DNA of 64,000 nucleotides from Methanolobus vulcani (GTDB taxonomy: Archaea > Halobacteriota > Methanosarcinia > Methanosarcinales > Methanosarcinaceae), in contig NZ_FNCA01000004.1 of NCBI RefSeq assembly GCF_900100715.1, forward strand, positions 1-64,000, read 5' to 3'. The position numbers and the translations under genes were made by a program. Under the pieces are notes generated by a model, which had not been told where the DNA came from, did not search any database, and saw nothing but the letters and a program-made list of their open reading frames with translations. Each line of letters starts with the position of its first letter. Position 1 is the stretch's first letter. Shown piece after piece: positions 18,812 to 52,170 of this stretch.

Positions 18812-19045
18812 TTATTTCAGCTCTGCTCCCACAATTGTCTGAGTCGCAGTGACTGACTCGGTTTCACGTATAAGATCGACTATGCTATTGAGACTTCCAA
18901 GGTCACCAACCTCAATGATCACAACAAAGTCATATTCTCCAAAAACATGATATATATCCTTTATACCCTCAATTCTGTTGAGTTCGTTAAAAGCTGCCCT
19001 TTCACTACCAGGCAGTACATTTACCATAGTTACGCCTATTACCAT
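18812..19045 (-). CDS. Stand-alone Lrp/AsnC ligand-binding (RAM) domain protein
   Basis: About 77 residues forming one alpha-beta RAM domain (VTMVNVLPGSERAAFNELNR, GIKDIYHVFGEYDFVVIIEV, TESVTATQTIV). No DNA-binding helix-turn-helix is present. Such single-domain proteins bind amino acids and can assemble with full-length Lrp proteins. ATG 19045 is preferred over the longer frame to 19093 because GTGAT precedes it and because the extra residues do not resemble the family. A full-length Lrp protein is encoded at 55445-55939 in this window. Confidence 0.85.
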   Translation of the reverse strand: MVIGVTMVNVLPGSERAAFNELNRIEGIKDIYHVFGEYDFVVIIEVGDLGSLNSIVDLIRETESVTATQTIVGAELK

Positions 19046-19171
19046 TGTATCACTTAGACAGAAGTAGGATGCAAAGTATTTAGACGTTTTCAATAATACA
19101 TTTGAGGCTCAAATAAGCAGGAAAAAGTATAAAAGTATTTTCGCAATCAATCACCTTATTTTAAAATTTAC

Positions 19172-19188
19172 CTCATCATAATGATGAG
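19172..19188. repeat. 17-base perfect palindrome upstream of candidate RNA
   Basis: CTCATCAT-A-ATGATGAG is a perfect inverted repeat centred at 19180, ending 15 bases before the TATA box at 19203. A related palindrome, CTCATCATTATGAG, is at 52092-52105, upstream of another candidate RNA. It may be a regulator-binding site; this is inference. Confidence 0.5.
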
Positions 19189-19229
19189 TATGAGGATAAT
19201 CTTTATATACCAAGAATATCATACTAATG

Positions 19230-19310
19230 ATTGATGAGCGGGTTATCCTCTTTTTGACAATAACCCCCACTCCCCAACCCGCTCATACTCCACTCCACTT
19301 TTCTTATCTA
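19230..19310 (+). ncRNA. Candidate structured small RNA
   Basis: A TATA box (CTTTATATAC, 19201-19210) is followed after about 25 bases by a GC-rich segment in an otherwise AT-rich spacer. An 11-base perfect stem joins ATGAGCGGGTT (19234-19244) to AACCCGCTCAT (19276-19286). An alternative 7-base stem joins GGGTTAT (19240-19246) to ATAACCC (19260-19266), so two folds compete. A pyrimidine-rich tail with CTTTTCTT follows. There is no open frame of any length. Strand choice rests on the TATA position. No known RNA family was recognised. Confidence 0.5.
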
Positions 19311-19830
19311 AAACATTAAACAACCAGATAGCCAAAGCTGTTTTTCATATTATACAATATAAACTCCAAGAATCAATTATTATGAACATAGAAGTATGAT
19401 AAATCATACAAATGCATACATTGGTTTTATAAAAATAACAGACCACTTTTTTCCATTATGTTACACAATTCATACAGAACAATACAACAATCAAAATAAA
19501 AGCAGATGATGATATTTCATTAAAACAGCCACTTCATTTGAAAACAAGTCTGCGAATAGAACAATTATAGGGGACTAGATTGAGACCCAAAACTTTGAGA
19601 CAAGAAAGAAGAATGAGCATCAATAATAAACAGCAGCATATGCCATCAAATACAGAGAGATACTACGCAATATGAATAATTAAATATTCACAAATGCATA
19701 TATGCATAGAAGAATAGATATCAAATAGTGTATGCTCTGATATACAGGATACATAGTATATAATTTGCAGTAAAGCCGATTGAAGTGGAGTTATACAAAA
19801 AACACAAATCAGAATCCAACCTCGGTGAGA

Positions 19831-21339
19831 TCAGAAATCAAATAATGTTTTTTGTGGTTTTGCTGCAACTTCCTTCTTAGCAGGTGCTGAAGAGTCATTA
19901 TTCTTAGCAGAGTCTTTTCCAAAAGCAGCATCTAAAGAAGTACTATCTGATGCTGGCAGACTATCAAAACTAAGCTGAGAAGGATCCTTCTTTGGTGCAG
20001 CCTTTTCGACAAAAAATGCGGGCTCATCTGCAGGGATGAATACCTGGCGCTTTTTCTGTGCCTCATCGTAGATCGCCTGGAGCTTTTTTGTAACCTTCTT
20101 TGCTCCAGCCATGTGAAGCATTTCATCCATATCCAGCCCAAGAACAGCAACAACATCCGCAGCATATTCATCTTCCTGAATTAGACGGGAATACATACCT
20201 GCTACCTCAAGACGGGAATATCGCATTGACTCATTGCAATGAGAACCAATTTTCACAGCAATGTTATTCCTCATATTACGCCTTGAACGCATCTGTCCCA
20301 TCTTACGCCAGAGAGAAGGTGGCTGATATTTTACAAATCCTCCACGCACTCTGGATTTAGAAACTACCGTACCGCCAGTCATGAGCATGCCTGCGTAACG
20401 CCACATGCGATAGTTCTGGCGTCTGCGAACACGACCAAGGAAACGGTCTGAGCGGGAAAGATAGGAATATGCAGTAATAATATCGGAAGTCAAAGCTTCC
20501 TCACCTTTACCAGTATACTGGTACGGAATATTTTCATCAACCCAGTGGATAAGATCCTCCGGTGTTTCATCCAGGTTATAAGTTGCCTCCAGGGCAGATG
20601 AAACATCCTTGCCTTTGAATATCCTTCCAACCACCTTGAATATGGATTCTTTATTATCGCGTTCTGAGATTGAAATGTCCTCAATATTAATCTCAGTACG
20701 ACCCATTGCAATAGCCTGCAGATCATTTACAGCACTTCTGAAATCGCCATCTGCGGATTCTGCGATTTTCTCGATCACACCCACACCGCACATAACACCT
20801 TCCTGTGCAGCGATCTTCTTTAGTGCAGGGATCATTGAGCGGGACTGTACTGAACCAAATTTAAGTTCAAGACATAAAGAACGTAAAGTGGATGAAAGTC
20901 CATAGATATCGTTGGCTATCAAGACAATGGGCTGACTGGCTTTCTTTATAACATCAACTATTGCGCGTGCACCTCCACGGTCACTATTACCATGAAGATT
21001 ATCAGCTTCATCAAGAATTATGAGCCTCTTATCAGAAGTGCCAGTAAGAGTTTTCATCGTAGATGCAGAGCCTGCAACCTTTTCAATAACACCTGCAGTT
21101 CTCTGGTCACTGGCATTAAGCTCAATGACCTCCCAGCCCATATCTCTGGCAAGCGCATGTGCAGATGAGGTTTTACCAATACCTGCCTGACCGTGCAGTA
21201 CTGCTGCTCTTTTTTCAGGTATTCCAAATTCCCATTGCTCGCCCCAGTTCCTGAGATCATCTATCACTTTCTTGTGGCCAACCACATCGCTCAGTGAGAC
21301 TGGCCTGTACTTCTCTGCCCATTCCATCTGCACAGTCAT
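19831..21339 (-). CDS. rfcL: Replication factor C large subunit (clamp loader)
   Basis: About 502 residues. The N-terminus [16 protein letters not shown] and Walker [16 protein letters not shown], Walker [11 protein letters not shown] and sensor regions define RFC-L. The C-terminus is basic and ends in a PCNA-binding motif, QKTLFDF. It loads the PCNA clamp with RFC small subunits, which are not encoded in this window. The ATG at 21339 is preceded by GGGTAA; a TTG at 21351 would add four residues. It is divergent from mtxX, with a gap of under 100 bases. Confidence 0.95.
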
Positions 21340-21426
21340 GTTATTACCCAATATTCAGGAAAAGTAATTAATGTTTGCACCACTTTGTTGTTCTGATTGA
21401 TATTATTGATGGTAGAGGTATCATCC

Positions 21427-51824: not shown

Positions 51825-51946
51825 TCAAATTGCAGAAAATTGATGTTTAATAGCTGAAGAATCAGAACGCAGGCAAAAATGAAAGCGTTTTTGGGAGAGA
51901 TGATGTTAGGGAATGCAGAGGGAATCTGCCTGCGTTCTGTTTTTTA
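51825..51946 (+). ncRNA. Candidate structured RNA with terminator-like end
   Basis: A perfect 13-base stem joins CAGAACGCAGGCA (51863-51875) to TGCCTGCGTTCTG (51927-51939), followed at once by six T. The loop of about 50 bases holds a possible inner hairpin (GCAG/CTGC). TATA-like AGTATATGG at about 51799-51807 would place a start near 51825-51830. It may be an independent small RNA or the 3' end and terminator of the corrinoid-protein mRNA. Confidence 0.55.
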
Positions 51947-51949
51947 GAC

Positions 51950-52036
51950 GTTTTTCTCTTCAGCGTTTTTCCGATGAACACATCGTACCACCTATGGTCA
52001 GCAAAGCCCTGGTCAAAGAGGATTTGTGACCGCACA
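51950..52036 (-). ncRNA. Candidate small RNA with own TATA box
   Basis: On the minus strand, TTTATATA (52063-52056) is followed after about 25 bases by GTGCGGTCACAAATCC. Hairpins include GGTCA/TGACC and CGATG-TGTT-CATCG (about 51970-51985). Nothing here codes for protein. The 3' end is unclear because it runs toward the plus-strand terminator hairpin. No known RNA family was recognised. Confidence 0.4.
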
Positions 52037-52170
52037 CCCTAGTATCCTAAAATAATATATAAATATTTCTACATTATAATATATAATGAGACTCATCATT
52101 ATGAGATTAGGATTTTGGGGAGAAAAGAGAGATGACAAAAATTAAAATTTAAAAAAGGAAGATCAACTAT

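Follow-up and report, generated by a model that had tools for sequence, protein, structure and literature searches.

Features of the locus

We analysed a 64,000-nucleotide stretch of Methanolobus vulcani DNA (the window) in which an Lrp/AsnC-type gene and rfcL enclose a long spacer. The frame of the Lrp/AsnC-type gene has 93 codons, and its true start may be internal. A first-pass annotation of this DNA had noted in the spacer a palindrome, a TATA box, an 11-bp stem and a 7-bp alternative stem, and all four were found where it had placed them (Table 1). The 17-base palindrome is exact, the 11-bp stem closes a hairpin that spans 19234-19286, and the alternative stem (GGGTTAT/ATAACCC) would join 19240-19246 with 19260-19266.

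Table 1. Features of the locus, its neighbours and a second promoter, in positions of the window
Feature	Position	Strand	Remarks
Lrp/AsnC ligand-binding-domain gene	18812..19093	-	PF01037, 40 bits, above cut-off
Palindrome CTCATCATAATGATGAG, operator-like promoter box, core TCATnATnATGATGA	19172..19188	.	columns of core close to 100% in 27 Methanolobus genomes
TATA box TTTATATA	19202..19209	+	conserved in 27 Methanolobus genomes
ATACTA, putative start-site-like block	19221..19226	+	by eye in many partner promoters too
Predicted small RNA	19228..19294	+	5' end uncertain, roughly at 19226-19234; 3' end at 19294 or further downstream; conserved block 19235-19294; hit of covariance model at 19231-19289 (73.6 bits)
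5' stem arm ATGAGCGGGTT	19234..19244	+	compensatory changes across family
Pairing segment A GACAATAACCCC	19256..19267	+	complement of GGGGTTATTGTC in partner RNAs
C-rich loop core CCCCCACTCCCC	19264..19275	+	nearly invariant across order (alignments); kept by members with unrelated stems
3' stem arm AACCCGCTCAT	19276..19286	+	compensatory changes across family
Pairing segment B CGCTCATACTCCAC	19280..19293	+	complement of GTGGAGTATGAGCG in partner RNAs
rfcL, replication factor C large subunit	19831..21351	-	AAA and RFC-type Pfam matches
Second partner-type promoter	52031..52104	-	model R2, 54.9 bits, E 2.1e-14

Composition alone would account for the palindrome: perfect inverted repeats with arms of 8 bp and a spacer of 0-3 number 9 across the window, versus 5.45 in shuffled sequence. 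No second hairpin as large as the 11-bp one occurs in the window (1 versus 0.8 in shuffles), and when at least 6 G/C per arm are demanded it is found once versus 0.0 times in shuffles. Composition does not explain this G+C-rich hairpin. Folded as a plus-strand RNA of 57 nt it gives z = -5.4.

We then compared the source genome with 26 other Methanolobus genomes. Across these 27 the block at 19235-19294 is 95-100% identical per ten bases, while the flanks are about 40% identical. Since the palindrome core, the TATA box and the hairpin are kept together in all 27 genomes, the set as a whole stands above chance. The Lrp-type gene adjoins the hairpin in 26/26 orthologous loci and rfcL is present in 24/26, the remaining two loci being short. 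When 19165-19330 was used in a blast search, matches came from 50 of 60 related genomes, spread over 17 of 22 genera, and in the more distant genomes these matches narrow to the hairpin alone. The locus thus fits the proposal of the first-pass annotation, a promoter-driven small RNA predicted on the plus strand between the Lrp-type ligand-domain gene and rfcL, with a conserved palindrome upstream.

An order-wide family of hairpins

A covariance model built from 27 aligned hairpins found the hairpin in 174 of 185 Methanosarcinales genomes, in 116 of the 117 better genomes and in 25 of 27 genera; the search returned no hairpin in genera g9 and g10. Copy number in the genomes searched ranges from 1 to 19 and is 3 in the M. 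vulcani source genome. The 19 copies are in one genome of family f5 (G105), and several genomes of the same genus have 8-13. Within the family the loop, AACCCCCACUCCCC, hardly varies. The stem does vary and remains paired: among 86 distinct rows 87.3% of cells pair and 9 of 11 pairs have changed on both sides. Stem covariation is 0.273, versus 0.145 in shuffles (0/500 reach the real value) and at most 0.102 when the stem is slid, in an alignment that was fitted to structure and so favours this score. A MAFFT alignment of the 27 hairpins, which was not fitted to structure, gave 90.8% pairing, 5 pairs and a covariation of 0.253, with L132 and L133 left out because their 3' arm was misaligned. 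The stricter E-value used for the later alignment dropped 16 reverse-strand shadows together with 2 probably real copies (L220, L298). Members found through the loop alone (L308, L311, L315) have quite different stems that are still paired. The first-pass annotation had let its small RNA stand or fall with a stem conserved or compensated in relatives; the changes on both sides in 9 of 11 pairs and the conserved block in 27 genomes bear it out.

The same annotation had read the two overlapping stems as a two-state RNA switch. The 7-bp alternative stem does exist, and both its halves are invariant inside Methanolobus. However, among 27 diverse hairpins it pairs at 67.7%, the level of shuffled columns (67.9%), with a covariation of 0.006, and alone it reaches -6.6 kcal/mol versus -16.4 for the main stem. 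A switch of this kind is very improbable, and we did not retain it.

In 79 of 99 hairpins (those of 108 with 150 nt upstream) a TATA-like hexamer precedes the model start by 21-30 nt, compared with 1-14 per ten-base bin elsewhere. With the TATA box at -30 to -21 the transcript should begin within a few bases of the stem. The fixed offset of the TATA box also bears on the idea that the hairpin is a transcription terminator, a dispersed repeat or a mobile-element end. Several copies per genome, the inverted repeats and a T-rich stretch after the hairpin in the source genome would suit such an origin. The promoter position does not, nor do stems that differ in sequence while the loop stays, identical neighbours in 26/26 loci and a T-rich stretch that is not constant in orthologs, and we regard this explanation as scarcely credible. 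Tandem hairpins occur at five of the 100 loci taken in (L117, L170, L177, L209, L247).

An exact-pattern search of a public genome collection gave 96 stretches, and 77 of the 80 listed bear Methanosarcinales names. Named carriers among the matches listed are Methanolobus, Methanococcoides, Methanomethylovorans, Methanohalobium, Methanoperedens, ANME-2 and others; the other listed matches are 2 unnamed archaea and 1 in a Desulfuromonadales bin. The latter lies on a 3.1-kb contig (L200) titled Desulfuromonadales that is probably a misplaced archaeal contig. The viral contigs searched gave no match. None of 4227 Rfam models matched the hairpin, the partner RNAs or the mRNA leader described below, when the whole window was searched at the gathering score and 16 loci at E up to 1.

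Several other readings were tried and set aside. A small peptide, MSGLSSF, could be drawn from the hairpin; the ATG of this sole mini-frame is absent in most other genera. A scan for bacterial promoters and terminators was discarded, as sigma-70 patterns are not applicable to an archaeon. The first matches in the source genome had taken the form of a minus-strand repeat, GGAGTATGAGC...GGTTATTGTC, which was abandoned as the element because it is the plus-strand hairpin with its TATA box that is conserved; the minus-strand motif is the complement carried by the partner RNAs.

The locus bears the marks of a small-RNA gene, namely a putative promoter of its own, a conserved structured region and no conserved ORF. 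Judged from sequence comparison, a real and conserved sRNA gene almost certainly lies here on the plus strand.

Partner RNAs with two complementary arms

Four loci in the source genome carry GAGTATGAGC followed, after 20-50 bases, by GGTTATTGTC. These arms match the reverse complement of the sRNA tail and of the loop flank exactly, and conservation of the sRNA tail ends at 19294, the same point at which its complementarity to these loci ends. We call the two arms the module and the RNAs that carry it partner RNAs. We found 70 copies of the module in 25 of 27 Methanolobus genomes, the exact form being absent from G006 and G024, and none in the 158 other genomes of the order; the reversed pattern, used as a control, gave 0 in all 185. 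Between the arms are G-rich stretches, and most copies have a hairpin there that differs in sequence and is still paired (by eye). Among the matches listed, the module takes up the 3' end of RNAs that are diverse in their other parts, and at some loci the first arm is repeated with several GTGGGG-like units between. One subgroup of partners (n = 9) has a common 5' helix and a long hairpin that are mostly constant, with changes on both sides in 4 of 36 predicted pairs. The shape of arms plus hairpin had prompted us to consider CRISPR, TnpB guide RNAs and mobile-element ends, which were dropped on informal inspection: the partner RNAs have promoters of their own, and no associated gene was seen.

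The predicted gain from interaction of the sRNA with the module is -21.3 to -42.3 kcal/mol (39 sites), and for the four sites of the source genome 0/100 shuffles matched the real value. Pairing requires the opening of the sRNA's own stem, and the module arms are able to pair weakly with each other. Because the sRNA and partner segments are both invariant within Methanolobus, covariation there cannot test the pairing. The exactness and distribution of the arms suggest that the pairing of the sRNA with the partner module is very likely real. Partner RNAs also have the extensive complementarity to an sRNA that is expected of an RNA sponge.

Such pairing could also work in the reverse direction, with the partner RNAs as regulators and the hairpin as a sponge that restrains them. 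The pairing energies and the shared promoter type are silent on direction, and the partners are structured and several per genome. However, the hairpin is order-wide and the module is found in one genus only, at the 3' end of RNAs that otherwise differ, and we consider this direction unlikely. The same difference in spread suggests that the hairpin came first.

A ribosome-binding motif and AUG are conserved in the partner RNAs, followed by an ORF of 1 to about 90 codons. With such a range of lengths the mini-ORFs were rejected as a conserved peptide; the motif and AUG may instead serve as a ribosome-binding decoy or a leader. In L015, L266, L288 and L290, for example, GGTGGTACGATATG is followed by ORFs of varied length, some of two codons.

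A shared promoter box

Upstream of the modules we observed a box, TCATnATnATGATnA, and then a TATA box. The box is of the same kind as the palindrome of the sRNA. By eye, about 13 nt separate palindrome and TATA box in the sRNA promoter, whereas most partners have about 24 nt there, and with this difference in spacing a single regulator for the sRNA and its partners is not certain. That the sRNA is regulated, as the first-pass annotation had supposed, we infer from the operator-like palindrome that it shares with the partners.

A sequence-only model of the partner promoter, made from 33 of 38 partner promoters, matched all 27 Methanolobus genomes (3-12 matches each). Outside Methanolobus it matched 48 of 158 genomes, mostly with few weak matches, and 2-11 times in genus g25. 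At E up to 0.01 the source genome has 10 matches: four accompany the module, one (L328) a degenerate form of it, one lies in the window and lacks it (Table 1), and the last four stand ahead of protein genes or of unclear sequence. The promoter in the window is followed (51830-52104, minus strand, promoter included) by a structured RNA with a GGTGGTACGATG motif and long complementary arms, without the sRNA-pairing module.

Ten promoter-type loci in four other genera were inspected as well, and none had an altered module; the sRNA must therefore do something else in those genera. These loci comprise mostly protein genes, together with unclear sequence or a module-less RNA (L455). Three of the proteins are small and zinc-finger-like: at L449, L452 and L456 the promoter precedes CxxC genes that resemble the L331 gene of Methanolobus described below. 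The regulon may have a zinc-finger gene of the L331 type as its older core.

In Methanolobus psychrophilus R15, of the same genus, nine conserved cold-induced intergenic sRNAs have been reported with a common motif, the 'cold box', upstream of their promoters (PMC5378194), compared with the 3-12 promoter-box matches per Methanolobus genome here. It is as likely as not that the box described here is that cold box, the two being likened by description. The accessible text of that report mentions no antisense hairpin, partners or targets.

Candidate mRNA targets

The complement of segment A is also present, over 11 nt, in the leader of a zinc-finger mRNA. The protein (L331) has 52 residues and a weak zinc-ribbon match below cut-off, and its transcript, like the partner RNAs, has a promoter of the palindrome-plus-TATA type. 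In 19 of 23 copies of this gene from 22 genomes, GGGTTATTGTC lies 63-92 nt before the start codon; the copies without it are L413, L429, L430 and L431. The 11-mer occurs nowhere else in those zinc-finger loci, and the leader sequence around it is variable. The site lies within a small hairpin of the leader itself, and pairing with the sRNA is predicted to bring a modest net gain (-6.5 kcal/mol). Counted together with module and sRNA-antisense sites, the 11-mer is present in 27/27 Methanolobus genomes, in each above its reversed control.

Two side observations concern possible further targets. In the source genome the leader of a secreted C39-peptidase-like gene (L010, C11:925) has GGAGTATGAGCGG with a palindrome-like box and a TATA box. 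In a Methanosarcina-type genome a membrane-protein gene (L446, minus strand) with the ribosome-binding region AAAAGGGGGAGTTGG was the best of 103 genes for pairing with the C-rich loop (-27.6 kcal/mol).

The exact complement of the loop was rejected as a route to mRNA targets, as by eye nearly all of its matches are the sRNA genes themselves. Since the loop complement lies almost solely opposite sRNA genes, no order-wide target was identified. A loop that is nearly invariant across the order and has no exact order-wide RNA target found is what one would expect if the hairpin were an sRNA whose C-rich loop is mainly a protein-binding site, with the Methanolobus complements a later addition. Some family members have a loop with at least two C-rich units, which would suit a multivalent binding site. 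Against this, a protein-binding loop does not explain why exact complements with two arms exist and why one genus alone has them, nor does it explain the conserved tail at 19287-19294. We consider it a rather unlikely account, and favor a loop that acts by pairing.

Discussion

Our data suggest that the locus consists of a promoter and a plus-strand gene for a small antisense RNA, about 65 nt long, which is a member of an order-wide Methanosarcinales family and probably pairs with partner RNAs. The stem would present the C-rich loop as a pairing surface. Segment A would pair with GGGGUUAUUGUC in the partner RNAs, and segment B together with the opened 3' stem arm would pair with GUGGAGUAUGAGCG; the result would be a junction in which the hairpin of the partner itself forms the third arm. 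When the shared promoter is switched, possibly by cold, the partners may act as a sponge that titrates the sRNA, or the sRNA may silence them. The free or bound sRNA would then alter the translation or stability of mRNAs such as that of the zinc-finger gene. We infer expression, pairing in cells, the direction of control, the effect on translation and the cold control from sequence. That the partners act mainly as a sponge is a tentative proposal. Similarly tentative is the broader reading of an ancient Methanosarcinales antisense RNA that Methanolobus RNAs, sharing a promoter type and possibly cold-induced, have evolved to capture; this would take in ANME-2 and Methanoperedens, a three-block pairing around a hairpin and a sponge circuit that reaches the zinc-finger leader.

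The closest described archaeal sRNAs outside Methanolobus are sRNA41, sRNA154 and sRNA162 of Methanosarcina mazei, which are intergenic and reported to pair, partly at ribosome binding sites. The hairpin could be the Methanolobus form of one of these, most plausibly sRNA41. Consistent with this, the family is present in 29/30 genomes of genus g7, which we take to be Methanosarcina, so that this genus probably has the hairpin family too. Also, a C-rich loop could mask ribosome binding sites, as has been reported for sRNA41 (PMC5867862). A form of sRNA41 would be expected to pair with ribosome binding sites of the ACDS operons. However, genes of the cdh region pair with a Methanosarcina-type loop no better than other genes do, in what was a weak test with crude gene calling. 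The two other RNAs differ further. sRNA162 is described as a 191-nt RNA with three stem-loops and a 39-nt linker that is confined to Methanosarcina, with homologs in two other species of that genus only (PMC3510493), and was set aside because our RNA is a single hairpin, differing in length and in its order-wide spread. The promoter of sRNA154 has the NrpR operator GGTA-N6-TACC (PMC3177094), which by eye is absent from 19105-19230 and from the regions upstream of L121, L127 and L134. In the descriptions available, none of the M. mazei sRNAs is an order-wide hairpin with an invariant C-rich loop, and on these descriptions identity with a known M. mazei sRNA is doubtful.

Bacteria are known to have both C-rich pairing sRNAs and RNA sponges (PMC9266662). 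The staphylococcal UCCC-motif sRNAs such as RsaE have a C-rich unpaired segment proposed to pair with mRNAs, and SprY, a sponge of RNAIII, is a second RNA that titrates an sRNA, as proposed for our partners (PMC9266662). The organisms are unrelated; here, in contrast, there is one loop in a single hairpin behind an archaeal TATA promoter, the partners have two arms around a hairpin, and the action is a predicted one. A literature search, with most subscription papers outside its reach, found no description of the hairpin family, and one Weinberg survey contains no mention of 'Methanosarcin'. The combination of a C-rich sRNA and a proposed sponge looks new for archaea.

The sRNA is present in nearly all searched genomes of an order that makes and consumes methane, and it is short, with an invariant loop that invites one clean mutation. 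A new Rfam family could be started from its alignment. For Methanosarcina mazei, a species of a genus that probably has the hairpin, a method for the markerless deletion of sRNAs is available (PMC3177094). The candidate partners and the candidate mRNA in Methanolobus would open sRNA action, and a possible sponge, to direct testing in archaea. To our knowledge, few archaeal sRNAs have known targets.
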